From NCBI GenBank assembly GCA_002239005.1, contig MPNL01000014.1, forward strand, positions 1 to 64,000: a stretch of 64,000 nt of DNA, given 5' to 3'. A program made the position numbers and the translations under genes. This DNA comes from Truepera sp. bin119. GTDB lineage: Bacteria; Deinococcota; Deinococci; Deinococcales; Trueperaceae. The notes below the pieces were generated by a model. That model had not been told where the DNA came from, ran no database searches, and worked only from the letters and a program-made list of their open reading frames with translations. Shown piece by piece: positions 4,154 to 63,485 of the stretch; position 1 is the stretch's first letter; each line of letters opens with the position of its first letter.

Positions 4154-7100
4154 GTTCCAATCCTCACCCGCCCCTGAAGGCGGGTGCAACGTCGCCACTG
4201 CGTGACGATCCACAGCCAGCTCAGGTTTCAATCCTCACCCGCCCCTGAAGGCGGGTGCAACTCAACCACGAGAGCGTTTTTAGTCACCAAGTTATCCGTT
4301 TCAATCCTCACCCGCCCCTGAAGGCGGGTGCAACCTCCGTCTCCCCTGCCCGGCCCCCCCAGCCACTTAGGTTTCAATCCTCACCCGCCCCTGAAGGCGG
4401 GTGCAACGGGAACGTGACCTGCGATTAGGGCACGCCTCACCAGGTTTCAATCCTCACCCGCCCCTGAAGGCGGGTGCAACCCCCGGATGCCGGATGAGAC
4501 CCCGGAGCTGGCAGGTTTCAATCCTCACCCGCCCCTGAAGGCGGGTGCAACCTTGAGGACCTCAGCACCATCACCAGGGCGACCTTGTTTCAATCCTCAC
4601 CCGCCCCTGAAGGCGGGTGCAACGAGTCGCGACTCTCTCCGGTCCCGCAAGCGAGCGTGTTTCAATCCTCACCCGCCCCTGAAGGCGGGTGCAACGGGGC
4701 CGCGACCCCCCCGGGCCCCGAAAGCGAGCGTGTTTCAACCCTCCCCCGCCCCTGAAGGCGGGTGCAACTTTCGCTATGCCGATCCGATTCAGCGTCAGCC
4801 CGTGTTTCAATCCTCACCCGCCCCTGAAGGCGGGTGCAACTCGACCTGCTCGGTCGAGCCGGCAAGGACGTCGGCGTTTCAATCCTCACCCGCCCCTGAA
4901 GGCGGGTGCAACTTAGCCCACATCTTTGCCTCCTGCATCTTCGTCACGTTTCAATCCTCACCCGCCCCTGAAGGCGGGTGCAACCCGCGGCCTTGCGGTG
5001 CGGCACGAGCCGAGAGGAGTAGTTTCAATCCTCACCCGCCCCTGAAGGCGGGTGCAACTGGAGTCCTCTGCCGAAGACCCGTACATCCCAACAGTTTCAA
5101 TCCTCACCCGCCCCTGAAGGCGGGTGCAACTTGCTTGCGCTGCGTCATTCAGCCCTCAGACCTGGTTTCAATCCTCACCCGCCCCTGAAGGCGGGTGCAA
5201 CCCATCAGCTCCTCACCTCCCTGGCCACGCTCATCAGTTTCAATCCTCACCCGCCCCTGAAGGCGGGTGCAACCCAACAGGTGTTTGTAGTCCCTCAGCT
5301 CACGGTTGTTTCAATCCTCACCCGCCCCTGAAGGCGGGTGCAACCTCCTGGGACTTGGAGAGGATGCCCCTGATGTAGGCGTTTCAATCCTCACCCGCCC
5401 CTGAAGGCGGGTGCAACTTGCAGGCCAGCGGGGTTGATGAGGGCTGAGCCAGGGTTTCAATCCTCACCCGCCCCTGAAGGCGGGTGCAACAAAACCGCTC
5501 CCGCTAGTAATAGCAACACTCAGGCGTTTCAATCCTCACCCGCCCCTGAAGGCGGGTGCAACGCCGTAAACACCAGGTCAGAGGTGCGCTTCTCCTGAGT
5601 TTCAATCCTCACCCGCCCCTGAAGGCGGGTGCAACCCCAGTCCCGACTCAGTCGCTGCAGGAGCCCCTCCTGTTTCAATCCTCACCCGCCCCTGAAGGCG
5701 GGTGCAACTCCAAGTTCAACTCCAACCGCTGCGCCAACTGCACGTTTCAATCCTCACCCGCCCCTGAAGGCGGGTGCAACATACAGGACCGGGCCACGTC
5801 TCGCCGCCAGTGAGTTGTTTCAATCCTCACCCGCCCCTGAAGGCGGGTGCAACGCACGCTGTGTGGCGGGTCTAAGCTCGACCGCAGGTTTCAATCCTCA
5901 CCCGCCCCTGAAGGCGGGTGCAACCTAGAGGTTGCCAACCTTGCGGTCGCAGAGTATGACGTTTCAATCCTCACCCGCCCCTGAAGGCGGGTGCAACGAG
6001 CCCTAAGGGATACGACAGTATACCACCTATATGTTTCAATCCTCACCCGCCCCTGAAGGCGGGTGCAACCCCGCACTCCTGGCGTCCTTCGACGCCCTAC
6101 GCTTGTTTCAATCCTCACCCGCCCCTGAAGGCGGGTGCAACCGGGGCATTCTCAGTGGCCTCCGTGACTGGTGGGTTGTTTCAATCCTCACCCGCCCCTG
6201 AAGGCGGGTGCAACCTTTCCTCTGTCGTGTTGATCGCAAACTCGATGTGTTTCAATCCTCACCCGCCCCTGAAGGCGGGTGCAACCGCGCTGGTGGGGGA
6301 GGTCTCGCGCGAGGCGACGCTGTTTCAATCCTCACCCGCCCCTGAAGGCGGGTGCAACACCGTTCAGGACGGTGTTGCGATAGGCATGACTGAGTTTCAA
6401 TCCTCACCCGCCCCTGAAGGCGGGTGCAACCGGATGAACCCGTCTGCGTGGGCAGCGGGGATCGTGTTTCAATCCTCACCCGCCCCTGAAGGCGGGTGCA
6501 ACGCGCCTGTGGCGGGCACCGAGACGTTTGACAACGTGTTTCAATCCTCACCCGCCCCTGAAGGCGGGTGCAACAACCGTGGTAGCTGATGCCTTCCTCG
6601 AGCCCCCGGTTTCAATCCTCACCCGCCCCTGAAGGCGGGTGCAACCCACCTGGAAACATCTGTGAGTGGAGGGTAGACATGGTTTCAATCCTCACCCGCC
6701 CCTGAAGGCGGGTGCAACCTCCCTTGGCCAACTCGCTTGTGCTGGCAGAGGTGTTTCAATCCTCACCCGCCCCTGAAGGCGGGTGCAACCACATGGGCAG
6801 TCTCCATCTCAACTGCCGGTATCTGTTTCAATCCTCACCCGCCCCTGAAGGCGGGTGCAACGTGATGGTTGACTGGGCACGAGGGAGGGTGATGGATGTT
6901 TCAATCCTCACCCGCCCCTGAAGGCGGGTGCAACCAGCGGTTGATTGAGTTGGAGAGAGAGGAATGAGGTTTCAATCCTCACCCGCCCCTGAAGGCGGGT
7001 GCAACGGGAGGTGGCGGCGCTGGGATGCGCGATTATTCACGTTTCAATCCTCACCCGCCCCTGAAGGCGGGTGCAACCAAACGGAGTCAATTCGTGTCCA

Positions 7101-7296
7101 TTGATACTGACGATGTTTCAATCCTCACCCGCCCCTGAAGGCGGGTGCAACCAAACCGTCGTTCACGATCGCTCAGGTATCCAGCGGTTTCAATCCTCAC
7201 CCGCCCCTGAAGGCGGGTGCAACCAGGGTGGCCTCGAGGCGTAGCTCGTGGTCGTGGTGGTTTCAATCCTCACCCGCCCCTGAAGGCGGGTGCAAC
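4154..7296 (-). CRISPR. CRISPR array, type I-C, 44 repeats and 43 spacers
   Basis: A 37-bp repeat occurs 44 times with spacers of 34-37 bp. On the plus strand it begins GTTTCAATCCTCACCC and ends GGCGGGTGCAAC; on the transcribed minus strand it ends GAGGATTGAAAC, the type I-C 5' handle style, with an inner stem GCACCCGCC/GGCGGGTG. Transcription should run leftward from the leader beside cas2. The leader-distal terminal repeat (4154-4190) has a T-to-C change, as expected for the trailer end. One other repeat (4732-4768) differs at two positions. There is no cas6; Cas5c should process the transcript. I cannot assign protospacers. Confidence 0.98.
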
Positions 7297-7482: not shown

Positions 7483-7773
7483 CTAGAGCACTAAGGGCTC
7501 ATCAAAATTGACATATCTATCCTGACCAAAAGTCATTAGGTAGTCCTCCCGGTTACCCCGGAGTTTGTAAACACGTAAGCTATCGGTGTCCTGCTTGATA
7601 GTCTTCTTAAGCTTGCTGATGAGCGCTTCATACTGCGCTTCATTTACACTACACTCAAAAACTGAAAATTGCACGCGCTGACCGTAGTTTTTGCAGACTT
7701 TGGCAGCGCTGCGCAGGCGTCTGCGCCCAGCCCTGGTTGTTGTCTCTACGTCGTAGGTGACTAGAACGGTCAT
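7483..7773 (-). CDS. cas2: CRISPR-associated endonuclease Cas2
   Basis: Cas2 forms the adaptation complex with Cas1 that inserts spacers at the leader end. The 96-aa protein starts MTVLVTYDVETTTRAG, with the conserved first-strand aspartate, and continues with the ferredoxin-fold pattern YGQRVQFSVFEC. I chose the ATG at 7773, which overlaps the cas1 stop (ATGA); an eight-residue upstream extension is unlikely. It is the last gene of the cas operon and borders the leader. Confidence 0.95.
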   Translation of the reverse strand: MTVLVTYDVETTTRAGRRRLRSAAKVCKNYGQRVQFSVFECSVNEAQYEALISKLKKTIKQDTDSLRVYKLRGNREDYLMTFGQDRYVNFDEPLVL

Positions 7774-8801
7774 CGCAGCAAAAAGGGTTGGTAACACGGC
7801 ACATCGCCGCGCAAGAATCTGGCTAGTAGTCTTGCCTGGACGTGTGGGATAAGGCCATAAGGGACGCTCTTGTTTGAGGCCGGATGATATACCTCGTCTT
7901 GTTTGCGCTTCTGGTAGGCGCTAAGGAGTGCTTTTCTAGTGTCGTCGTTTAGGCTGTATGAGTTGCCGGGGCGCTTAACAATATCATCCGGCTTGATTTG
8001 CTGGCGATTAATAAGGGTGAGGACAAAGCGGTCAGCTAACGGTGAGCGGAGTTCTTCCATCAGGTCGAGTGCGAGCGAGGGACGACCCGAACGTAGGGTG
8101 TGCAAGAAGCCCATCTGAGGGTCTAGGCCGACGCCTTCACAAGCGGAAACACATTCATTTCGCAGCAGACCGTAGGTAAAGGAAAGGAGGGCGTTCACGG
8201 GGTCTTTGGGCGGTCTTCGATTACGTCCCTGAAAGGCAAAGGAATTTTTATTCGCTAGGATGAGATGATCGAACACGCCGAAGTAGATCTTGGCAGCGTC
8301 TCCCTCGGCCCCGCGCACCTCGTCGAGGCGATTTAACCTCGGCAAATGTTGGATGATGGAAGCGTGTTCGCGGGCGGCGCTCTGCAGGGCGGTCTGATGA
8401 TTGGGATGGTCGCTTTCTCGAGCTGCACGCATCAGGGTATGGCGGGCGGTTTGTAGTTTTCCCGCCACAAACCGGCGTGCTAAGTCTAGGGTGACATCCT
8501 CGGCACAGAGTGCTTGGTGCTGGGCACGGCGCAAGAGTACGTTGCCACTAACAGGGCCGTCTAAGCGACCTTTAAAGCGTCCGCTGCGTGATAGCCACAC
8601 CACCATGCGTCCGTCCTCGGCGCAGCGGTGCAGTAGGTAAGGGCTGATGAGCACGTTGCCGAAGACAACAAGGCTACCCAAGTGATGTAACGGTATCTGA
8701 AAAGGTTCCTCTTCAGGCATCTCCATTTTCAGCGTTTCACCCTCCAAACGCAGATACGCTCCCTGCGTCTGCACGTAGAGTGTGTTAAGCAGCTGTTTCA
8801 T
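7770..8801 (-). CDS. cas1: CRISPR-associated endonuclease Cas1 (type I-C)
   Basis: The integrase of spacer acquisition. It has 343 aa, the usual type I-C length, starting MKQLLNTLYVQTQGAYLRLE. The beta-rich N-terminal domain is followed by the all-alpha catalytic domain. Metal ligands are visible: the Glu in RGAEGDAAKIYF, the His in MGFLHTLRSGRP and the acidic residue in LALDLMEELR. It overlaps cas4 upstream and cas2 downstream by 4 bp each, so the three adaptation genes are translationally coupled. Confidence 0.97.
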   Translation of the reverse strand: MKQLLNTLYVQTQGAYLRLEGETLKMEMPEEEPFQIPLHHLGSLVVFGNVLISPYLLHRCAEDGRMVVWLSRSGRFKGRLDGPVSGNVLLRRAQHQALCAEDVTLDLARRFVAGKLQTARHTLMRAARESDHPNHQTALQSAAREHASIIQHLPRLNRLDEVRGAEGDAAKIYFGVFDHLILANKNSFAFQGRNRRPPKDPVNALLSFTYGLLRNECVSACEGVGLDPQMGFLHTLRSGRPSLALDLMEELRSPLADRFVLTLINRQQIKPDDIVKRPGNSYSLNDDTRKALLSAYQKRKQDEVYHPASNKSVPYGLIPHVQARLLARFLRGDVPCYQPFLLR

Positions 8802-9385
8802 ACCTCGAATACATCCTGTGGGACGAAGTCTCTAATGATGAAGGGCATACAAGCGTCTATCAGTGAGCACTTATCACAGCGTTTATCGGCTACAGGTTCA
8901 GGTAAGGAGGATTGTTCGAACAGTTCTCGCACACCCTGGACCGTGTCAGCGACAAGTCGCCGCAGGTCGTCGTCAAAGCACACTACGCGGCGGCGTTTGC
9001 TGCGGTCGTAAAAGAGGCTGCCCTTGGGAACACTCACCTCAAACATCTCTTCTAAGCACATGGCTTGAGCGCAGAGTTGCACGTTATCGGCCTCTTTGAG
9101 CTTGCGTGCACCCGCCTTGTACTCGATAGGGTAAGGTTGTCCAGCCCTAAACTCAACCATGTCGGCACGGCCCGTTAGGCCGTGGCGCTCCGAGTAAAGG
9201 GGTAGGGAACGCTCGACACGCACCTCAGCCCGCCACTCGGTCGTTGTCTCATCGACGCGTTCGTGGACTTGGCGGCCACGCAGCGTATAGAGGTTTTCGT
9301 CGAAGGTCTGCTCGACGTGAATGAGAGCGCACTGGCGGGGGCAGTAGATGTAGTGCTGCAGGGCGCTTATGGGGATAAGATCCAC
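8798..9385 (-). CDS. cas4: CRISPR-associated exonuclease Cas4
   Basis: Cas4 trims prespacers and selects the PAM in type I-C adaptation. This 195-aa protein has the N-terminal cysteine pair YCPRQCALIHVE, the RecB-type nuclease core PIEYKAG, and the C-terminal cluster CDKCSLIDACMP; together these give four cysteines for an iron-sulfur cluster. The GTG start at 9385 directly follows the cas7c stop. It overlaps cas1 by 4 bp. Confidence 0.96.
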   Translation of the reverse strand: MDLIPISALQHYIYCPRQCALIHVEQTFDENLYTLRGRQVHERVDETTTEWRAEVRVERSLPLYSERHGLTGRADMVEFRAGQPYPIEYKAGARKLKEADNVQLCAQAMCLEEMFEVSVPKGSLFYDRSKRRRVVCFDDDLRRLVADTVQGVRELFEQSSLPEPVADKRCDKCSLIDACMPFIIRDFVPQDVFEV

Positions 9386-10234
9386 TCATCCCTCGAAGAG
9401 TTTGGTAAGGGTAACGCCGTTGGGGAGATCCTCATTGACAGTGACGGTGTAGTCGGTGAAGGCGCGGGGCGAGGTGCCATTGGAAGTTCGCTTGACCGCA
9501 ATGTTCTCGAAGAGCTTGTGGGCGTGGGCGTTCCCCTTCTTATCCTGGTGCGTGAACACGTAAAGCCCACGAACAGCCATGTCACCGCGCGCTGCTGAAC
9601 GATCAAATTCATACATGCGCTCCAGGGCTTCCCAAAGCTTCTCCAAATCTTCTTCGCTCACGCGCTTAGCAAGGTAGGGGTTATAGAATCCATGTGCGCG
9701 ATAAAGCCCATAAGGTGTGATGGCCTTGCGACCGATCTCAGTCGTACCGCCGCGTTCCTGTCGCTCCTCCGTCGTACGTGCTTGACGGGTAATAGAGAGG
9801 TTGTGTTGATAGATGGGATCGAGCGAGCGGGCAAACGTTAGTTGCACAGGTCCGCGCACTTGGCCCGCGTTGTAGTCGCCCGTTGTGAGGACTGCGCCGA
9901 ACATGCGAATGTCGTAGAACTTTTCGATCATGGCGCATTGCAGCCCTGGCGCTTCATCTCCCTTCTTCGGTTTATCGATACCCTTCTCTTTGGCAACGTT
10001 TTCCATGACAGTGTTGAGCGCGCTCTTACTCTGGATGAAGATGCTTTCGTCTAAAATTCTCTGGGCGTAGTCTCTAACTTTACGCTTCAGAGACACATCC
10101 GTGACAAGGCCTTGGCGCGTTTCGGGGTCGATGCGGGGCATGTTATCGGCGTCCGGGTCACCGTTTGGGTTACCGTCGCGAACGTCGAACAAGATTACAA
10201 AGTCGTGGCGGGTGTCGGGATTAGTGTGGGTCAT
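9386..10234 (-). CDS. cas7c: Type I-C Cascade backbone protein Cas7c (Csd2)
   Basis: The RNA-binding backbone subunit of the type I-C effector complex. The 282-aa protein has the Csd2 N-terminal signature FDVRDGNPNGDPDADNMPRI and SLKRKVRDYA. Later blocks such as ARTTEERQERGGTTEIGRKA are also typical. The ATG overlaps the cas8c stop by 4 bp and has a GGAG ribosome site. The length is normal and nothing is disrupted. Confidence 0.95.
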   Translation of the reverse strand: MTHTNPDTRHDFVILFDVRDGNPNGDPDADNMPRIDPETRQGLVTDVSLKRKVRDYAQRILDESIFIQSKSALNTVMENVAKEKGIDKPKKGDEAPGLQCAMIEKFYDIRMFGAVLTTGDYNAGQVRGPVQLTFARSLDPIYQHNLSITRQARTTEERQERGGTTEIGRKAITPYGLYRAHGFYNPYLAKRVSEEDLEKLWEALERMYEFDRSAARGDMAVRGLYVFTHQDKKGNAHAHKLFENIAVKRTSNGTSPRAFTDYTVTVNEDLPNGVTLTKLFEG

Positions 10235-10698
10235 TCTGCATCTCCTTCTTCAGCCTCGGTTGTACCAGTCGTAGCGGCGTTATTTCGGCGGAAACCCGCT
10301 CGCTGACAATAGAAACCAAGCGCGAACTCGGCTTGGTCTTTCGGACTGAGAGGACGGTAGCGCTCAGCTTCAGGAATGACCTGAAGCTTCAAACAGGTGT
10401 CCTCCATAAGTTTCTTGAGCCAGCCCGTCCCCGATTTTTGCCGTCCGATTTTAGGCAGGTATGCCGTTTCAAATAGGGTATAGAGCTGCGGCATGGTCGT
10501 GCCTGGTGAGGTGGACACGCCGCCATAAAAGCGCTCGACGAGCATTCGGTTCGTGCCACCGCCGTCACCTTCTTTAGACTTCTGCCCGTAGCGTTCCCTG
10601 TCAAGGTATTGGCTGCGTTCTTGTGCTTGCTCGATGATGGCGAACTGCCGGCCGTATAGATAAGGTGCGGACGTATTGGTTTCGTCTACCACTTGCAT
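10231..10698 (-). CDS. cas11c: Probable Cas11c from internal translation start in cas8c
   Basis: In type I-C systems the small subunit is made by internal initiation within cas8 (established for this subtype). Here an ATG at 10698, residue 489 of Cas8c, is preceded by AGGAGGT (10706-10712) with 7-nt spacing, the best ribosome site in the gene. The product would be 155 aa, beginning MQVVDETNTSAPYLYGRQFA, in frame with Cas8c and sharing its stop. The size fits a Cas11-type helical small subunit. Translation itself is inferred. Confidence 0.7.
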   Translation of the reverse strand: MQVVDETNTSAPYLYGRQFAIIEQAQERSQYLDRERYGQKSKEGDGGGTNRMLVERFYGGVSTSPGTTMPQLYTLFETAYLPKIGRQKSGTGWLKKLMEDTCLKLQVIPEAERYRPLSPKDQAEFALGFYCQRAGFRRNNAATTGTTEAEEGDAE

Positions 10699-12162
10699 AG
10701 TGGCTACCTCCTCTGTTCCGTAGGTAAGTGCAAGTTTCATGGCAGCGGCCAAGGCATGAGTTCGCCAAGGCTCTTTATGCATGCTGGGAACCCGAAACCG
10801 GGCTACCGCCGCGCTGAGCAACTGTTGAGGTGGTGGATAACCCCGGTAGGCGCAGCGCAGCAGACCGAGTTGTATCCCTGGATTGCTGGTGGTACTCTTG
10901 GCACCTATTGGGGTGAGTGCCCCCATGATGGTCCCTATTGATACTGGACTAGGTCGGAAGCCACTAGGTGTGACCACTGAGAGCGCGTCCAGATAAGCTG
11001 TCATATTGTCTTGGAGCTTCTCGAGCGGCACCTCGGTCCAGTCCCGAAGGGCGATGCGCCCTACGTTGGGCGACAGAATTGCCAGATAAAAAGAAATGTC
11101 CCGCAGGTCACGGCTCGAGTCGGAAGGTGCCCAGGGCTGCTTGAGGAAACTGCGTATACGGGGAAGATCAAGCTGGCTTGCTTTTTCGACCTCCTGCTTG
11201 CTACGATCTTTTGGGTCGGGACGGTTATTGATGAGCATGGTGAGTCTTTCCAAGATTGATTCGCTGTCTAGCTGCTCGTTTTCTACGACGATTTCACTGT
11301 CTAGGTCGACCCAATAAAGCGCGATGTGGTTTTTGAGTGAGTCGCCGCTGTTTTTGTCAAAAACCAGTGTTTGACGGTAGTTGCTGCTATTTGAAAGGTA
11401 GTTAAAAGCACGTGCGGCAGTGTCACCTGCTTCAAAGCCGAGACCGATGTGAGCCTTTTTGGCGGTGCTTGCGCTGCCGACGAAAGAGACAAAGGCATCC
11501 TGATTGAGCGAGTGTAGGGGGGCTGTGCTATTGAGCTTCACCTTCAGTGGGATTTTTGCTACTAGCGGCGCTTCTTTACCGGTGATGGCGCAAGCACCTT
11601 GTACGAGACGCCCACTTTCGTCCCTCTGTTCACAGCGTCGCTGCGCCTCTTCGCTCCAGAACCTCAGCATATCTGGAAGTTCAAAAAGGTGCTGCCCTTC
11701 GAGTGCACCCTCACTCGGGGAAAACGAGACCCAGGCTTTGTTAATAACCTTATCCCACTCGGGGTCGGTCCTCAGCCACCCCTCTCCTGACGCTTTCTTG
11801 ACCCAGCCGATAGCCTCCTTAAGGCTGGTATCGGAGGTGAAGTCGTATGCCTCATCCAGCAGCTCGAGGAACGCCCCGTGCTTTTTGCCTGCACGCTTAT
11901 CCACTTTGCCCTTCGCGTCGACCTCTACCCCCAAGGCGTAGGCGGCTTCGTCCACGAGCGCATGAGCCTGAACATCAGACGAGCGACCACTGTATGGCCT
12001 CGGCTTCTCAATCTCTACACTCTCGAGTCTCGCACTCTCAGGACCGATGTGGACGGCCCAGCGTATTGGTTCGCCGTAGTTGTAAAAGCCCACAGGTGGG
12101 AAGGTGTCCGAGGTGTTGCGCAGCTGTCGGCCAAGGTCGTAAAGAGCCCTAAGCATGCCCAT
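10231..12162 (-). CDS. cas8c: Type I-C large subunit Cas8c (Csd1)
   Basis: The large subunit of type I-C Cascade, which recognises the PAM and contacts target DNA. The 643-aa length is usual for Csd1. Typical blocks include CAITGKEAPLVAKIPLKVK, the central SFVGSASTAKKAHIGLGFEA and FNYLSNSSNYRQTLVFDKN. It overlaps cas5c by 14 bp at its start and cas7c by 4 bp at its end. A strong internal ribosome site and ATG at 10698 allow separate translation of the C-terminal domain as Cas11c. Confidence 0.95.
   Translation of the reverse strand: MGMLRALYDLGRQLRNTSDTFPPVGFYNYGEPIRWAVHIGPESARLESVEIEKPRPYSGRSSDVQAHALVDEAAYALGVEVDAKGKVDKRAGKKHGAFLELLDEAYDFTSDTSLKEAIGWVKKASGEGWLRTDPEWDKVINKAWVSFSPSEGALEGQHLFELPDMLRFWSEEAQRRCEQRDESGRLVQGACAITGKEAPLVAKIPLKVKLNSTAPLHSLNQDAFVSFVGSASTAKKAHIGLGFEAGDTAARAFNYLSNSSNYRQTLVFDKNSGDSLKNHIALYWVDLDSEIVVENEQLDSESILERLTMLINNRPDPKDRSKQEVEKASQLDLPRIRSFLKQPWAPSDSSRDLRDISFYLAILSPNVGRIALRDWTEVPLEKLQDNMTAYLDALSVVTPSGFRPSPVSIGTIMGALTPIGAKSTTSNPGIQLGLLRCAYRGYPPPQQLLSAAVARFRVPSMHKEPWRTHALAAAMKLALTYGTEEVATMQVVDETNTSAPYLYGRQFAIIEQAQERSQYLDRERYGQKSKEGDGGGTNRMLVERFYGGVSTSPGTTMPQLYTLFETAYLPKIGRQKSGTGWLKKLMEDTCLKLQVIPEAERYRPLSPKDQAEFALGFYCQRAGFRRNNAATTGTTEAEEGDAE
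10706..10712 (-). promoter_or_regulatory. Internal Shine-Dalgarno for cas11c
   Basis: A full AGGAGGT lies inside the cas8c coding sequence, 7 nt before the in-frame ATG at 10698. Such a perfect site inside a gene is unlikely to be neutral and marks the Cas11c start. Confidence 0.7.
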
Positions 12163-12850
12163 GCTCTAACCTCGCTAGCTCCTCGTACTTCTCTTGTGGC
12201 ACCTTCATCACACCCTCTTTTACCTCCGCATCGAAGTAAAGGGCCTGTGCATAGCCTTTCACCTCTATCCCCCTTCCCGCTTCGTGTATGGCGAAAGCCA
12301 TTTCAGGGCGTTTCGTATCCTTGACAAAGGCAAGATCGAAAAGCATAGTTCCCACCTTCAGGTTGAAATTGGCAGCGGGTAGGTCATCGTTACCCGGAGG
12401 GGCAAAATGGGCTGCGAACTCTCGCGTACCGAGATAGGGCCGAGAAAAGCACTGACCACGATCAAGCCGTCGCTCAAACTGGGACGTATATTTTGGGATG
12501 GGATCTTTTGTGTGCGGTTGCAAGGCAATGGCAGCCTTGAGGCGATATCGCACATTTTTCAAGATCAGGCTGGTGCGTTGCTGGCGTTTGTCTTCAATAA
12601 AGATGGGGTTTTTCCCCTGTCGGTCACTTAGCTCGTTACGTAAGAGACTCATCTGGGTGCCTGGTTCAACGACCACGATCTCCTGAATGCGGTAGCGGAA
12701 CTCTGGCTTCCAGAAGATAGCCTCGAGCACACCTCTGGCCGCGCTCGGTGTGATGATGGGGTAGCTTACACGCTCAACTTTGAACTCTGGTCGGGAGAAG
12801 AGGGCAAAATCGCCCCAGACGGTTACGTCGATATCAGCGTCTGCCACCAT
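12149..12850 (-). CDS. cas5c: Type I-C pre-crRNA endonuclease Cas5c (Cas5d)
   Basis: In type I-C, Cas5 replaces Cas6: it cuts the repeat and stays on the 5' handle. The 233-aa protein starts MVADADIDVTVWGDFALFSR and continues PEFKVERVSYPIITPSAARG, the RAMP-type first strand and GVLEAIFW helix. The later LGTREFAAHFAP block is typical. The ATG at 12850 follows the cas3 stop without a gap, and the gene overlaps cas8c by 14 bp. Confidence 0.95.
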   Translation of the reverse strand: MVADADIDVTVWGDFALFSRPEFKVERVSYPIITPSAARGVLEAIFWKPEFRYRIQEIVVVEPGTQMSLLRNELSDRQGKNPIFIEDKRQQRTSLILKNVRYRLKAAIALQPHTKDPIPKYTSQFERRLDRGQCFSRPYLGTREFAAHFAPPGNDDLPAANFNLKVGTMLFDLAFVKDTKRPEMAFAIHEAGRGIEVKGYAQALYFDAEVKEGVMKVPQEKYEELARLEHGHA

Positions 12851-15085
12851 TCACCTCACTAGATAGTCGTCCTTGTAAACGAGGAGGTCACTTGGGTCAC
12901 GTACGAGTGCGTCGAAACCTTTAAGCTCCGAATCGTATCCTGTTCCTGCACCGTCCCATGCGAATAGTTCGAGCTCCTTGTCGCGCCGTACCACGCGCTT
13001 GAGTAGGCCATCACGATCGAGTCGCCCAACGTCATATCGATAAAGATTGACAACGTAAGCTTGCAGGGTTTGCCAAGTGTGGCGGCTAGGTTTATCCAGG
13101 TAACCCTCCAAATGTATTTCCCAGTCGCCGTACTGAACGACCACTGGTGAGGTGTCGTCCTCGATAAGCTTGTAGCGACTGTCTACCTCAGGGAAATCCC
13201 GACTTCTGCGGTGCTCTTGTACTTCGTTTGCGTCTAACTTTGCACCGGCATCTCCATAAAGGGAGGCGAAATAGGCACGGCAAAGCTCAGGATCATCGAA
13301 CAAGGTGTCGGCGTGTTCGCGCAGGAGAAACCGGGTCTTCTTGGTGCCCATCGCATAAAATCCTTGGGGTTCCCGGCTCTCGACGGTCTCAAATACAATG
13401 ACTTGTCCTCTATAGGGCAGTTCGCCCTCCCGATTACAGCGACCTGCCGCCTGAATGATGCGGTCAAGTGGCCCTATCGCTCGGTAAACTCGAGGGAAGT
13501 CGAAGTCCACGCCTGCCTCTACAACTTGTGTACTAACAAGGCGAACAGGGTTCCCATTCTTGAGGCAGTCTCTAACTTCTGCCAAAACCTTGTTCTGATG
13601 CTTGGGACAAAGGAGTGTCGAGAGAGACTTGAGGTGGGGGACATTTTGTTTCTTTAGTTCGTCAAGCAAGATCAGAACATCTCTTCTTGTGTTCAGGACA
13701 ACTAAAACTTGCTCATTCTCCTCCTGGGCGAGTTCTCTTGCCAACTTCTCCCATGTGAGTGGGCTCGGCCTGAGAGTGTAGTCCACCCGTTTTAGGACAT
13801 CGAAATGTTCTGGGTAGTTAGGGACGATTTCCGTGATGTCGAGGGCATCGAAGTGTTTCTTTAACTGAGGAGCCCCCTCGTACTCTGGCTGAGTCGCAGT
13901 ACAAAACACCACGCTTACACCGTAGTTCTCGACCAACTCCCTGAGCACGTCTAGGGTGGGCTCGAGGATGTGAGCCGGGAGGGTCTGTGCCTCGTCGAGG
14001 ATGATGACCGAGCGATTGAGGTTGTGTAGCTTTCGAGCTTTGCCAGGCCTTCGAGTGAAAAGGCTCTCGAAGAGTTGCACATTTGTAGTGATAATCAGAG
14101 ATTCACTCCAATTCGGAATACTGTAGCGTACCTCTCCCTCGGTAGCCTCGACCTGACTATGGTGCTCGAGAATAACTTGGCCTAAGGGCTCAAATATCTC
14201 TCTGTAGTCATTTGCCGTCTGCTTGATAATGTTTGTGTAGGGGATGGCAAACACGATGCGATCAAGAGGTGTTCGTTGAGAAAGTGCGTGCTTAAGCGCG
14301 AAAGCTAAGGCGGCTCGCGTCTTGCCAGCGCCGGTCGGCGCCGTCAGGCGATAAAATCCAGGCGGGTTGGTCGCGACCTGGCAACAAGCTCGGTACACTT
14401 CTTGCCTTACTTGATTGACTCTGTTCTGCGCTGCGGAGGAGTCGAGTTCCTCAATAAGACCCTTCTGATTTTGCTTGAAGGTTCTCCAGAGCACTTTCAA
14501 ATCTGGATAGGTCGGAGGAATTAAGTCAGGTTGGCAATGTTGTTCGGTATCAGAATAGTCGGCATCGACCAGTGCGCTCAGGAGCATGCGCGTACGGAGT
14601 TCGCTCCCCAACATCGCTCGTTTGGTTAGCGCAAACTCGGGTGGCCCGAGCATTTCCAGATACTTGCTTAGTTCACGTATGACCTCCCATGTTTCCTCTT
14701 TCTGCGAAAGTCGTTCAATGTCGTCTTTGAGGATGCCGACAGCCTTTAGGCCTGCGTGGTGCCCAGCAATCACGGGTGCAAGTTCAATCCAGGAATCTTT
14801 GTCTAGCAGTAAATAAGCCATGAGTGCGCCCCAGATGGCATGCGGCTGACCTGAATGGTACTTCCCTTCGTACTGAGCCTCCAAGTACCTCTGAAATTCG
14901 GGGTGAAGTTTCCCAATATCGTGTAGAAGACCGGCCAAGCGGCCAGCAGTGCCCTCCCCAAACTTTCTAGTAAAAGCTTCTGCCTGAGCGGCAACGCCCT
15001 TCAGATGGTCGTCAAGGTAATGCCAGCGCTGCTTTAGGTCACCTTGCTTCGGTGTGTGAGCAGCAGGCCGTGTGGGTCGTTTCAA
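12851..15085 (-). CDS. cas3: CRISPR-associated helicase-nuclease Cas3 (type I-C)
   Basis: The effector nuclease-helicase that degrades target DNA after Cascade recognition. At 744 aa it has an N-terminal HD domain (LLHDIGKLHPEFQRYL near residues 53-68; GHHAGLK further on). The SF2 helicase follows with Walker A in APTGAGKTRAALAFALK, Walker B in IILDEAQTLPAHILEP, motif III in VVFCTATQPE and motif VI in IIQAAGRCNREGEL. The start is TTG at 15085 with AGAGGA about 7 nt upstream. It is the first gene of the cas operon, 92 bp after the upstream membrane-protein gene. Confidence 0.95.
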   Translation of the reverse strand: MKRPTRPAAHTPKQGDLKQRWHYLDDHLKGVAAQAEAFTRKFGEGTAGRLAGLLHDIGKLHPEFQRYLEAQYEGKYHSGQPHAIWGALMAYLLLDKDSWIELAPVIAGHHAGLKAVGILKDDIERLSQKEETWEVIRELSKYLEMLGPPEFALTKRAMLGSELRTRMLLSALVDADYSDTEQHCQPDLIPPTYPDLKVLWRTFKQNQKGLIEELDSSAAQNRVNQVRQEVYRACCQVATNPPGFYRLTAPTGAGKTRAALAFALKHALSQRTPLDRIVFAIPYTNIIKQTANDYREIFEPLGQVILEHHSQVEATEGEVRYSIPNWSESLIITTNVQLFESLFTRRPGKARKLHNLNRSVIILDEAQTLPAHILEPTLDVLRELVENYGVSVVFCTATQPEYEGAPQLKKHFDALDITEIVPNYPEHFDVLKRVDYTLRPSPLTWEKLARELAQEENEQVLVVLNTRRDVLILLDELKKQNVPHLKSLSTLLCPKHQNKVLAEVRDCLKNGNPVRLVSTQVVEAGVDFDFPRVYRAIGPLDRIIQAAGRCNREGELPYRGQVIVFETVESREPQGFYAMGTKKTRFLLREHADTLFDDPELCRAYFASLYGDAGAKLDANEVQEHRRSRDFPEVDSRYKLIEDDTSPVVVQYGDWEIHLEGYLDKPSRHTWQTLQAYVVNLYRYDVGRLDRDGLLKRVVRRDKELELFAWDGAGTGYDSELKGFDALVRDPSDLLVYKDDYLVR

Positions 15086-41937: not shown

Positions 41938-42014
41938 TGGTGGGCGATGGTGGATTTGAACCACCGACCTCGTCGTTATCAGCGACGCGCTCTAACCGAC
42001 TGAGCTAATCGCCC
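41938..42014 (-). tRNA. tRNA-Ile (GAU anticodon)
   Basis: Minus strand. Acceptor GGGCGAT pairs with ATCGCCC; the D-arm contains GCTCAGTCGGTTAGAGC; the anticodon stem CGTCG/CGACG encloses CTGATAA, giving anticodon GAT; the T-arm is GGTGG-TTCAAAT-CCACC. Discriminator A and an encoded CCA (41938-41940) complete it. It stands alone, not next to rRNA. Confidence 0.97.
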
Positions 42015-59751: not shown

Positions 59752-59780
59752 TTGACAGAGCCGGCGGCGGGTAGTACTCT
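59752..59780 (+). promoter_or_regulatory. Promoter of the iron-type binding protein gene
   Basis: Perfect -35 TTGACA (59752-59757), 17-bp spacer, TACTCT (59775-59780). The start site should fall at about 59787, inside the palindrome. Confidence 0.7.
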
Positions 59781-59785
59781 GCCTC

Positions 59786-59812
59786 TAATCCTGAGTAAAG
59801 TACTCAGGATTA
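59786..59812. promoter_or_regulatory. Perfect palindromic operator over the start site
   Basis: Two exact 12-bp arms, TAATCCTGAGTA (59786-59797) and TACTCAGGATTA (59801-59812), around AAG. A repressor bound here would block initiation. The iron-type gene suggests a metal or iron-sulfur regulator. The spacing (GAGTA-N3-TACTC) resembles Rrf2/IscR-like sites more than Fur or DtxR boxes, but this is only a guess. Confidence 0.7.
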
Positions 59813-59877
59813 AAACGGCCTTAACCAGAGGTCCCCACCCGTCCTAAACGGGGAGTGGGTGGAGAAAGGGAAGGACT

Positions 59878-60876
59878 ATGCCCAACCGACTACTGAGAGC
59901 CCTGCTCTTCGCTCTGATCACGACTCTTGGACTCGGCAGCGCTATCGCTCAGACACTCACGGTGTACTCCGGCAGGAACGAAGCGTTCGTCGGCCCCGTC
60001 ATTGAAGCTTTCGAACAGACCACAGGGGTTGACGTTGAGGTGCGCTACGGAGGCACCGCCGCGCTGGCTGCCGTCATCCTTGAAGAGGGCAACCTCAGTC
60101 CTGCCGACGTCTTCCTCGCTCAGGACGCCGGCGCTCTCGGAGCTCTCTCCAGAGAGGGCCTGTTCCAGCGACTCCCCAACATGATCCTCAGCCAGGTCGA
60201 TGCTCGGTTCCGCAGTCCCGAGGGCCTCTGGGTCGGCGTGACCGGTCGTGCCCGGGTGCTGGTCTACAGCACCGAAAACGTCGCTGAGGAGGAGCTGCCC
60301 ATGAGCGTCTTCGAGCTGACCGGTCCCGAGTGGCAAGGCCGGGTCGGTTGGGCTCCCACCAACGGCTCCTTCCAGGCGTTCGTGACCGCCATGCGCGTCG
60401 TGATGGGGGAGGAGCGGACCCGGGAGTGGTTGCAAGGCATGATCGCCAACGGTGTCAAAGACTATCGCAACAATAGCTCACAGGTGGACGCTGTTGGCCG
60501 CGGGGAGATCGACCTGGGACTGGTGAATCACTACTACCTGTTCCGCTTCCTGGCCGAGCGAGGAGAGGACTTCCCTGCTCGTAACCACTTCCCGTCAGAC
60601 GCGGATATCGGGGCGCTCATCAATGTCGCTGGGGCTGGCATCCTGGCTTCGAGCAGCCAGCCGGAGGTGGCTCAGGAATTCATCACCTTCCTCCTGGGCT
60701 CACAGAGTCAGCAGCACTTCACCGATACGGTGTTCGAATACCCCCTCGCAGGTGGGGTAGCGGTGAACCCGCTCCTCCCTCCGCTGGCCGAGTTGGAGAC
60801 TCCTGAGATCGACCTCTCCGATCTCGATGATCTCGAGCGCACCCTCGAGTTGCTGCAGGAGGTCGGTGCCCTCTGA
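59878..60876 (+). CDS. Iron(III)-type ABC transporter substrate-binding protein (FbpA-like)
   Basis: A 332-aa periplasmic receptor: signal peptide LLRALLFALITTLGLGSAIA, then QTLTVYSGRNEAFVGPVIEA. The RYGGTAALAAVILEEGNLSP and YRNNSSQVDAVGRGEIDLGL blocks are typical of FbpA/AfuA; the ligand tyrosines in LVNHYYLFRF fit an iron-binding role. ATG 59878 has GGAAGG upstream. No permease or ATPase gene follows, so it must work with components elsewhere. Confidence 0.9.
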   Translation: MPNRLLRALLFALITTLGLGSAIAQTLTVYSGRNEAFVGPVIEAFEQTTGVDVEVRYGGTAALAAVILEEGNLSPADVFLAQDAGALGALSREGLFQRLPNMILSQVDARFRSPEGLWVGVTGRARVLVYSTENVAEEELPMSVFELTGPEWQGRVGWAPTNGSFQAFVTAMRVVMGEERTREWLQGMIANGVKDYRNNSSQVDAVGRGEIDLGLVNHYYLFRFLAERGEDFPARNHFPSDADIGALINVAGAGILASSSQPEVAQEFITFLLGSQSQQHFTDTVFEYPLAGGVAVNPLLPPLAELETPEIDLSDLDDLERTLELLQEVGAL

Positions 60877-61062: not shown

Positions 61063-61725
61063 TTGCCGGACCGACCAGCCCGCCTAGCCGGAGTCCTGCT
61101 GCTGCTCACTGCGTCCGCCACGGCGGTGATGGTTATCGCCCGCGTCGTGGCGGACGCCGATCAGGCTACCTTGCAGGCGTCGCTGCGCGCGGTCGCCGAC
61201 AATAGGGCTGTGTACGGCCTCTCGGGGATAGCCAGGCTCCTCTCAGGCCTGACCCTCCTCGTCGCTGGCCGGTTCCTGCTATGGACCTGGATCATCCGGG
61301 GACGCTGGGCGACCCCTCTGGTCCCCTACCTGTTCATCCTGTCCGGCGTCTGCACCGCCATATCGGGAGCGTGCGCCGTCCTGATTGCCGTCTACGCAGC
61401 GCCCACCGTCGCAGCGGCGCCCCTGATTGAGGTGGTGTCCAGTCTGCGGTGGATTGCCGGCAAGGCGGGATTCGCTGCCGCCGGTATAGCGCTTATCGTC
61501 GCAGCCCGCTATCAGTGGCGAGTGGGTGGCACGCTAAAGAGAGTGGCTCCCGTGTCGGCGGTGATCGGCGTCGCCATGCAGTTCATCTGGCTGGATGCGG
61601 CGACCATCATGCACCGGGTGGGGGGCGCCGCCTTCTTCCTCTGGTTGCTGGTCATCGGGACGATGCTCGCCGCTGGCCGCGTCGAACGACGCTTCATTGC
61701 GACCTACGGTGGCGGTGAGGACTAA
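61063..61725 (+). CDS. Polytopic membrane protein, DUF4386-like
   Basis: A 220-aa hydrophobic protein with about six helices (for example LAGVLLLLTASATAVMVIAR; VGGAAFFLWLLVIGTMLAAG). It resembles DUF4386-type proteins; function unknown. The start is doubtful: the TTG at 61063 lacks a ribosome site, while AAGGAG at 61005-61010 lies 7 nt before an in-frame ATA at 61018. Confidence 0.65.
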   Translation: MPDRPARLAGVLLLLTASATAVMVIARVVADADQATLQASLRAVADNRAVYGLSGIARLLSGLTLLVAGRFLLWTWIIRGRWATPLVPYLFILSGVCTAISGACAVLIAVYAAPTVAAAPLIEVVSSLRWIAGKAGFAAAGIALIVAARYQWRVGGTLKRVAPVSAVIGVAMQFIWLDAATIMHRVGGAAFFLWLLVIGTMLAAGRVERRFIATYGGGED

Positions 61726-61763: not shown

Positions 61764-62540
61764 TCAAAGGCTTTGTAGCTCTATGTCAGCGTAGGTGATG
61801 TAAGCCGGATACGGGTTTTCTGAGTGGATGCTGTCGTTGTCATCAGCGGGAGCAACCTGTCGTTGGACGATTCGTCCGGGGAGGGCCTCAATAGGTGCTG
61901 TGAACATTGGCCCGTCGACAACGCAAGTATGAAACTCACCGTTCTCCCCAAGTGGGTCTATCTCGCTGGGCAGATCGGTGAGGAACTGGCGGTCGAACCA
62001 TCTGCCTACGAACCCGCTTGGTAGCTTGAGGGGATTGCCAGCGGTTACGACCGCGCGCACTCCGGACGCGATCATCGTCTTGGCGAGGTCGGCGGTGTCT
62101 TCTCCCCATATCGGGAAGAGCGGTCTGATACCGGTATCGCTGAGTCTCTCTTCCCGGTAGCGGCGGATATCTTCCAGGAACAGGTCACCGAACGCGACGT
62201 GCGATACGGTCAAGTGTTGTGGCAATGCCTGAACCTGTTCCAGAAAGCGCTGCATGGCGGCCTCATATTGGGCGTTGGAACATGGAGACGGTATCGGCAT
62301 CTCGTAGAGGGGTAGGCCGAGTCTTTCAGATTGCAGTTTCAGGATCCGGCGTGGTGTGGAGTGGATGGATACGCGGTTGAAGGTTGTCGTTACGGTCGTG
62401 AATATGCCGCGTACGTCGTAGCGCTCGGGCTGTTGTCGGAGGGTGTGAAGCGCCCAAGCGGAGTCCTTGCCAGAAGACCAAGAGACGAGGACAGGTATGG
62501 CTGGCACCGGGGTGATTGTGGGGGCTGTGCTCACTATCAT
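61764..62540 (-). CDS. ATP-pyrophosphatase of the diphthine-ammonia ligase family (DUF71)
   Basis: A 258-aa adenylating enzyme with the PP-loop WSSGKDSAWALHTLR near residue 22 and the family blocks VSHVAFGDLFLEDIRRYRE and GENGEFHTCVVDGPMF. In archaea and eukaryotes relatives amidate diphthine; bacterial members have no diphthamide and an unknown substrate. It sits 30 bp after the BtuF-like gene, same direction, a pairing that suggests a corrinoid-related role. Confidence 0.88.
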   Translation of the reverse strand: MIVSTAPTITPVPAIPVLVSWSSGKDSAWALHTLRQQPERYDVRGIFTTVTTTFNRVSIHSTPRRILKLQSERLGLPLYEMPIPSPCSNAQYEAAMQRFLEQVQALPQHLTVSHVAFGDLFLEDIRRYREERLSDTGIRPLFPIWGEDTADLAKTMIASGVRAVVTAGNPLKLPSGFVGRWFDRQFLTDLPSEIDPLGENGEFHTCVVDGPMFTAPIEALPGRIVQRQVAPADDNDSIHSENPYPAYITYADIELQSL

Positions 62541-62570
62541 CTTGGTAAGACCTTGATGACCAACGGCTCT

Positions 62571-63485
62571 TCAGACTCGTAGGTACGATCCCGGTACTGC
62601 CATTCCGGCGCACGCTTCGGGATGCAACATCTCGGCGAGGATCTCCGCACTTTCGGCGATGCGCGGCCCGGGCCGGTTGTAATAGGCATTGCCGTCCGCT
62701 ACATACACTCGGTTCTCTTGAACGGCCGGCAACGTCTGCCACAGCGGGTGGGCCATCAGTTGCGGGAGATCCGTCTGCGACTGCGGAATTGGAAAACCGC
62801 ATGGTGTGATAATGAGTACCTCCGGTCGGTAGGCGGCCAAGACATCCCAGGTAATGGCCGGTGTATGCCCCCCTGCATCGACGAGGCCATATTCTCCGCC
62901 CGCAATGTCCACCAATTCGGGAATCCAGTTGCCTGCGACCATCAGGGGATTCAACCATTCCAGGCAGACAACGCGGGGGCGCCGCATATAACGCGTCTTC
63001 TCTTTGACTTTCTGGAGGCGCCCTTGCAGGTTCCGAATCAGTTTCTCTGCGTTTTTCTGCCGACCGGCGGCCTCAGCGACATTACGGATATCTGCCCAGA
63101 TATCACTGAGGTTCCCCGGTCTGAGAGACACAACACTGACATCGAGAGTCAGGAAGGACCGCACCGCATTTTCAACCTCGGAAAGAGAAACGGCGCACAC
63201 CTCACACTGGTCCTGGGTGACGATGACATCCGGCTGCAGTTCTTGTAGGGTGCCGGTTCTCAGGCGGTAGATGCTCAGCCCCTCCTGCACGATCTCGCGT
63301 ACCCGAAGATCGATGTCGCCGCTGGTTCCGTGGGGATCAAGTTTCGGCTCGGTCAAGGTGGGCAGCCCCGCGACATCGGCCGGGTAGTCGCATTCGTGGG
63401 AGACGCTGACCAGGCGCTCTCGCAGCCCAAGCGCACAGACGATTTCCGTGCTACTCGGCAGTAGTGAAACGATGCGGTCTACCAT
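62571..63485 (-). CDS. BtuF-like cobalamin-binding protein without signal peptide
   Basis: A 304-aa helical-backbone metal-receptor fold: MVDRIVSLLPSSTEIVCALG, SHECDYPADVAG, DVIVTQDQCEVCAVSL. It lacks a signal peptide, so unlike true BtuF it should be cytosolic. Family members are annotated as cobalamin-binding. First gene of a two-gene unit with the PP-loop enzyme. I searched the upstream region for B12-riboswitch boxes and found none. Confidence 0.88.
   Translation of the reverse strand: MVDRIVSLLPSSTEIVCALGLRERLVSVSHECDYPADVAGLPTLTEPKLDPHGTSGDIDLRVREIVQEGLSIYRLRTGTLQELQPDVIVTQDQCEVCAVSLSEVENAVRSFLTLDVSVVSLRPGNLSDIWADIRNVAEAAGRQKNAEKLIRNLQGRLQKVKEKTRYMRRPRVVCLEWLNPLMVAGNWIPELVDIAGGEYGLVDAGGHTPAITWDVLAAYRPEVLIITPCGFPIPQSQTDLPQLMAHPLWQTLPAVQENRVYVADGNAYYNRPGPRIAESAEILAEMLHPEACAGMAVPGSYLRV

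Follow-up and report, generated by a model that had tools for sequence, protein, structure and literature searches.

The 27-bp palindrome at positions 59786-59812 of the window (the whole 64,000-nucleotide stretch of DNA that was analyzed) is probably, at about four chances in five (0.82), an IscR operator that would couple iron uptake to the status of Fe-S clusters. The site is conserved before orthologues of the ferric-iron uptake gene fbpA, its motif is shared by fbpC of the same genome, it matches known IscR boxes, and an IscR is encoded in the genome. At fbpA, we infer, IscR would bind the site and act as a repressor, with cluster status as its signal.

The operator, predicted to be IscR type-1-like and given no strand, is the perfect palindrome TAATCCTGAGTA-AAG-TACTCAGGATTA, and no other perfect inverted repeat of the 12-3-12 form occurs in the 64-kb window. 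When loops of 0-20 nt were allowed, perfect repeats with 12-nt arms were hit 8 times, at three distinct places, and the same search in 40 order-1 Markov simulations averaged 0.15 hits and never gave more than 2. On the forward strand, the site is preceded by a -35 hexamer TTGACA (59752-59757) and, after a 17-nt spacer, by a weakly matching -10 hexamer TACTCT (59775-59780). The pair agrees with the promoter consensus at 9 of 12 positions, and as the -10 hexamer agrees at just 3 of 6, the promoter was not listed by a stricter promoter scan. Transcription is predicted to start at 59787, 7 nt past the -10 hexamer, which puts the palindrome at about +0 to +26. A previous interpretation made from the letters of the window (the sequence-only reading) had described an exact-armed 27-bp palindrome after TTGACA-17-TACTCT that covers the predicted start, and on both counts it was confirmed in the window sequence. 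A likely ribosome-binding site, AAGGGAAGGA, was recognized by eye at 59866-59875 (forward strand).

The gene that follows, fbpA (59878-60876, forward strand, 332 aa), was assigned to the periplasmic binding protein of a ferric-iron ABC importer by Pfam solute-binding families and solved relatives. The best of these was 7w3w (E = 9.7e-94), and the solved relatives are named ferric-iron binding proteins; these matches place the product among the ferric-iron binding proteins of the FbpA/FutA/AfuA kind. The sequence-only reading had spoken of an iron-receptor gene; it was right as to iron, and the protein belongs to the periplasm and an ABC importer, not to the outer-membrane receptors. The next open reading frame behind fbpA (61063-61725, forward strand, 220 aa) has the look of a membrane protein by eye and matched no family in Pfam or NCBIfam at E = 0.001. 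It is followed on the reverse strand (61764-63485) by a Dph6-like ATP pyrophosphatase gene adjoining a gene for a Peripla_BP_2 (BtuF/siderophore-type) binding protein. Elsewhere in the window, the reverse strand carries a tRNA-Ile (GAT) gene at 41938-42014 and a CRISPR array with cas genes (4225-7296 and 7770-15085), in which 42 matches to Rfam CRISPR-DR9 were counted. The genes beside the array (Cas1, Cas4, Csd1 and Cas3) point to type I-C, and a repeat expected between 4695 and 4804 was missing among the CRISPR-DR9 matches.

In the genome of the window the importer genes are split over three contigs (fbpA on C82, fbpC on C88, fbpB on C42); in the relative G012 all stand together, with fbpC divergent from fbpA-fbpB. 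The FbpC of the window's genome shares 62% identity with the ATPase whose gene diverges from fbpA in G012, and among solved structures it is closest to an iron-transporter ATPase (E = 9.5e-107). A copy of the motif at C88:3712-3736 ends 37 nt before the fbpC gene. The permease gene fbpB was found by 60% identity to G012 fbpB, and no site was found in the fbpB region, where the best matrix score in 6 kb was 5.1.

Conservation was analyzed in 61 genomes, comprising that of the window and 60 relatives, in 59 of which an FbpA match was obtained. The loci of the 30 best FbpA matches, including that of the window, were fetched, and the 27-bp site was located upstream of fbpA in 30 of 30, although these are not 30 independent events, several being near-identical (six rows of one other family, L034-L039, L041 among them). 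Lack of conservation before orthologues had been named beforehand as one finding that would count against a regulatory motif; among these best matches the site was present throughout. Each locus was scored with a matrix from which that locus and, for six look-alike groups, the whole group had been excluded, and the observed score was reached by 0 of 300 letter shuffles in any of the 30 loci; the shuffles here and in the comparisons with the IscR, Fur and DtxR consensuses were of single letters and the repeat simulation above was an order-1 chain, none of which keeps dinucleotides exactly. The window site scored 19.3 under a matrix that never saw it. The common pattern before fbpA reads about nAAWYCCGAGTnnnnnACTCGGRWTTn, most of the relatives' sites are imperfect palindromes, and four fbpA promoters (L014, L015, L018 and L020) carry a second site. 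Least convincing are the matches at L032 and L033, whose register is shifted relative to that of neighbouring loci. In six named relatives from other groups the site was not found before the fbpA orthologue, so the motif is not universal for fbpA.

For geometry, 26 site rows were placed against the best promoter available. Within the window's own family, TTGACA or TTGACG precedes 19 of 20 rows, and 19 of 20 sites occupy one of two places, about +0 to +34, directly behind the -10 hexamer, or, for second copies, about -60 to -33; for the site row of L025 there was no convincing promoter. The six rows from other families are divided between overlap with the -35 hexamer (3) and the interval between -35 and -10 (3). 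At these positions a bound dimer would be expected to hinder RNA polymerase.

IscR was suggested by the spacing of the motif. A test matrix was built from 24 sites upstream of fbpA, leaving out the window site and all E. coli sequence, and was run on E. coli K-12. In 49 kb around iscR, ranks 1 and 2 were the two iscR-promoter boxes; in 40 kb around nfuA, rank 1 fell just before nfuA; and in 40 kb around erpA, rank 2 fell before erpA with a weak score (5.9). We take nfuA and erpA to be IscR targets in E. coli. The score at E. coli iscR was attained by a column-permuted matrix in 1 of 200 cases. Compared directly, the window site agrees with the E. coli type-1 consensus at 18 of 25 positions (4 of 500 shuffles of the window promoter did as well), which is weak evidence alone, since the same count is attained at 4 places in the 64 kb; two P. 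aeruginosa sites gave 17/25 and 20/25 by the same count. Like the IscR type-1 box, the window site is a 25-bp inverted repeat at a promoter, with four-base cores five bases apart, CC/GG flanks and A/T-rich ends. One of its half-sites repeats the 11 bases with which P. aeruginosa iscR site A begins, AATCCTGAGTA, as that site is printed, with the type-1 consensus and its GACT-N5-AGTC cores, in an excerpt of PMC3899308. The impression of a repressor site, already formed by the sequence-only reading, is borne out in that the element is operator-like and fits the IscR type-1 box in frame and sequence. Its further proposal of an undescribed metal regulator motif does not stand, given the 18/25 agreement, the recovery of both E. 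coli iscR boxes by a matrix made without E. coli sequence, and the likeness to P. aeruginosa site A.

Two Rrf2 proteins, C33 and C28, are encoded in the window's genome. The IscR candidate (L073:3746-4204, contig G000:C33) is followed by an Aminotran_5 gene (E = 1.4e-65) that starts 527 nt after the iscR start and presumably encodes a cysteine desulfurase. Its closest solved chain was 4cic (E = 1.9e-30), which we take to be Thermincola IscR. CymR chains ranked next, ahead of E. coli IscR, which speaks against the IscR reading. The candidate keeps Cys92, Cys98 and Cys104 of E. coli IscR, as well as Tyr41, Glu43, Gln44 and Arg59. The IscR contacts Ser40, Tyr41, Glu43, Gln44 and Arg59 are given for a type-2 complex in a section of PMC11475020; by that list 4 of 5 are kept and Ser40 is replaced by Gln (His or Gln in 28 rows). 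At the position of the E. coli cluster ligand His107 the candidate has Glu; this and the Gln at Ser40 also count against the IscR reading. Across the aligned IscR rows of the order (28 of 35, 7 being dropped where the rebuilt frame stopped early, and L067 and L075 being the same gene), that position is Glu in 27 of 28 and Gln in 1 of 28, and the three cysteines are present in 28 of 28. An option raised beforehand was that an Rrf2 homologue binds the palindrome, and an Rrf2 protein, the C33 IscR, is indeed the best candidate, with the E. coli iscR boxes recovered by the matrix.

An IscR orthologue with at least 54% identity was found in 59 of 61 genomes, that of G024 in two pieces and that of G030 with one internal stop. 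G022 (79% complete) has the site and gave no IscR orthologue at that identity; G027 (90% complete) gave no IscR orthologue, no site within 2 mismatches and no close FbpA. In the window's genome no site was found in the promoter of iscR itself (best score -4.5), so that the expected autoregulation was not found; a site before iscR is usual in IscR regulons and lies outside the definition of the box. Among 35 distinct IscR-type loci, a site scoring at least 16 precedes iscR in 3 (G003, G011 and G053), and scores of 9 to 11 were obtained in 7 more.

The distribution of the motif was determined with the regulon pattern AAWYCCGASTNNNNNASTCGGRWTT at up to 2 mismatches in the 61 genomes, with the same pattern read backwards as control. 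It matched 66 palindromes, against 10 for the control; 38 genomes had at least one and 23 had none. In the window's genome exactly 2 sites were returned (fbpA and fbpC) against 0 for the control. The 66 were assigned by hand from flanking open reading frames, Pfam, and FbpA, SUF and Fur matches, to 25 fbpA-type, 14 other iron, 5 Fe-S, 1 other metal, 12 other and 9 unannotated genes. Recurrence near metal genes, a check put forward with the sequence-only reading, thus yielded 44 of 66 palindromes at iron or Fe-S genes; the 25 fbpA-type sites are not independent of a matrix trained upstream of fbpA, in contrast to the remaining 19 iron and Fe-S sites. The 14 other iron sites were assigned to genes for FbpC (3), imelysin (4), FeoB (1), siderophore/haem-type binding proteins (3), an ABC ATPase (1) and Fur (2), and the 5 Fe-S sites to those for SufC (4) and a Suc_Fer-like protein (1). 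Of the 12 other genes, with which two G002 sites (ribosomal L17 and PfkB genes) were counted, 7 matched a Pfam family and the other 5, unscanned, were classed by inspection (G041:C2, G041:C9, G015:C63, G031 and G023:C162); 4 of the 9 unannotated genes were scanned and no family was found, and 5 were unscanned. The Fur-family genes preceded by an IscR-like site are L101 in G056 and L138 in G012.

The regulon became apparent only once the motif had been learned from orthologues. The exact palindrome at up to 3 mismatches gave one hit in the 3.2-Mb genome of the window. There, a relaxed core pattern showed no excess (5 against 6 for the control), and neither did AAWYCCGASTNNNNNASTCGGRWTT at 3 mismatches (3 against 4), whose sole addition was a doubtful place at C12. 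A covariance model search on sequence only returned the fbpC site and missed the window and sufC sites, and for this reason patterns and our own matrix were relied upon.

Regions around suf genes were fetched because four pattern hits preceded sufC. Twenty were picked by position only, and in 15 of 20 a score above 10 was found upstream of sufC, always at -98 to -134 from a sufC start set by homology; L185, L186, L187, L191 and L192 had no site above 10. The sufC site of the window's genome, GATTATCGAGCGGTTTTCTCGACAATA at -113, is weak (14.1). In the motif-blind set of 34 regions (14 around Rrf2 genes and 20 before sufB; 136,047 positions), 17 positions reached 10, namely 15 before sufC, 1 before iscR of G011 and 1 other.

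Binding by a metal sensor of the Fur or DtxR/MntR family, through a motif that is unusual in this lineage, is unlikely. Of the 61 genomes, 60 gave a Fur-family match and all 61 a DtxR-family match (60 of these above the cut-off), so the proteins are available and, being nearly universal, their presence alone is not decisive. Two Fur genes adjoin a site (G056:C1:698576 and G012:C1:396361), and the FeoB site at G014:C94 has a Fur gene about 2.4 kb off; at the former two, either IscR controls Fur or Fur stays a rival. Against such a sensor, G045 (91% complete) has IscR and a site and gave no Fur match, and the matrix picked out the iscR boxes of E. coli although no E. coli sequence had gone into it. 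For the Fur and DtxR/IdeR consensuses we assumed GATAATGATAATCATTATC and TTAGGTTAGSCTAACCTAA. The window promoter matches each of them at best at 10 of 19 positions, which 279 of 500 and 341 of 500 letter shuffles also reached, in keeping with the sequence-only reading, which had seen no Fur or DtxR box. When the same DtxR/IdeR consensus was applied upstream of the fbpA orthologues of three actinobacterial relatives, DtxR/IdeR-like boxes were found that differ in sequence from the window site (L009, 17/19; L012, 14/19; less clearly L011, 12/19). Slightly less probable again is another Rrf2 protein, either that of C28 or one of the RirA kind. The C28 protein (L074:3661-4128, contig G000:C28), encoded beside genes for a ModA/ModB-like binding protein and permease, has three cysteines (C-x8-C-x5-C), the window site contains TGA-N9-TCA, the core of the RirA-type box, and boxes of Rrf2 proteins can resemble one another. 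However, just Tyr41 of the five contacts is kept in C28 (Ser40 is Pro, Glu43 Val, Gln44 Arg and Arg59 Lys), and no site scoring above 4 was found in the 8 kb around its gene.

The palindrome might instead act in RNA, forming a hairpin at the very start of the fbpA message, where it would stabilize the transcript or control translation. A leader starting at 59787 would open with an 11-bp stem, and the 94-nt fbpA leader folds at -38.2 kcal/mol (z = -3.45; 0 of 200 shuffles equally stable). In other families, however, the motif lies across the -35 hexamer of fbpA or between -35 and -10, outside the transcript, and this position argues for a role at the level of DNA; the sufC motif at its distance of -98 to -134 would likewise fall outside that transcript, and the imperfect symmetry of most relatives' sites also speaks against a hairpin, which we regard as very improbable. 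That the palindrome arose by chance and has no function is scarcely credible: it would suit this reading that a search of the 3.2 Mb for the exact palindrome at up to 3 mismatches gave a single site and that looser searches of the same genome gave no excess over control, and the sites at 30 of 30 best-match loci and the excess over the control across 61 genomes argue against it.

With IscR as the regulator, the following mechanism is proposed. When Fe-S clusters are plentiful, a cluster-loaded IscR dimer would bind the 27-bp site over the transcription start and block RNA polymerase, and fbpA would be off. With iron or clusters scarce, or with the cluster oxidized, IscR would leave the site and ferric-iron uptake would be turned on. 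In the window's genome the same IscR would control fbpC, and probably also the sufCBD operon for Fe-S assembly, and iron intake and cluster building would then obey one signal. As a tentative extension, which we hold to be possible and rather doubtful, a Cys3-Glu IscR may be the main iron regulator throughout the order (ferric uptake, FeoB, imelysin, SUF and some Fur genes), sensing Fe-S clusters and not metal ions, with Fur and DtxR serving other jobs. The IscR reading turns an unexplained palindrome into a testable regulon, in which one Fe-S-sensing repressor would tie ferric-iron uptake to Fe-S assembly. Among the top matches listed in a search of the open-licence literature, no title on such a regulon in this lineage was found. 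With Glu replacing His at the position of the fourth ligand, the way in which this IscR retains and senses its cluster becomes a clean biochemical question.

Control of this kind is known from other organisms; here IscR seems to govern iron uptake and Fe-S assembly together. In Rhodobacter sphaeroides, according to an excerpt of PMC4618611, cluster-bound IscR represses iron-uptake genes including afuA, with sites over or near the promoter, and repression of an afuA-type binding-protein gene from such a site is what is proposed here. As given in the same excerpt, the R. sphaeroides Iron-Rhodo-box is a 19-bp palindrome, whereas the window site has 27 bp, and the C-terminal part of the R. sphaeroides protein contains just one cysteine where the C33 IscR keeps three. 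The alphaproteobacterial RirA is described as an Rrf2-family Fe-S repressor of iron uptake like the candidate here; judged by description, it differs in that the motif fits an IscR box and that the C28 Rrf2 protein lacks four of the five contact residues. The DtxR/IdeR-like box of other phyla (L009, L012 and partly L011, under the assumed consensus) stands before the same gene, fbpA, presumably with the same aim of iron-dependent repression, and its motif is unrelated to that of the window and absent here. As far as the promoter sequences indicate, fbpA would thus be placed under different iron regulators, by a DtxR/IdeR-like box in actinobacterial relatives and by an IscR-like box here. Relative to the known type-1 boxes, the window site has GAGT-N5-ACTC in place of the GACT-N5-AGTC cores of the consensus, as printed in the excerpt of PMC3899308, and one E. 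coli iscR box itself has the GAGT core. Unlike the E. coli and P. aeruginosa boxes, it is perfectly symmetric with TAAT ends, and it precedes a ferric-iron uptake gene, whereas the known type-1 boxes precede the isc operon.
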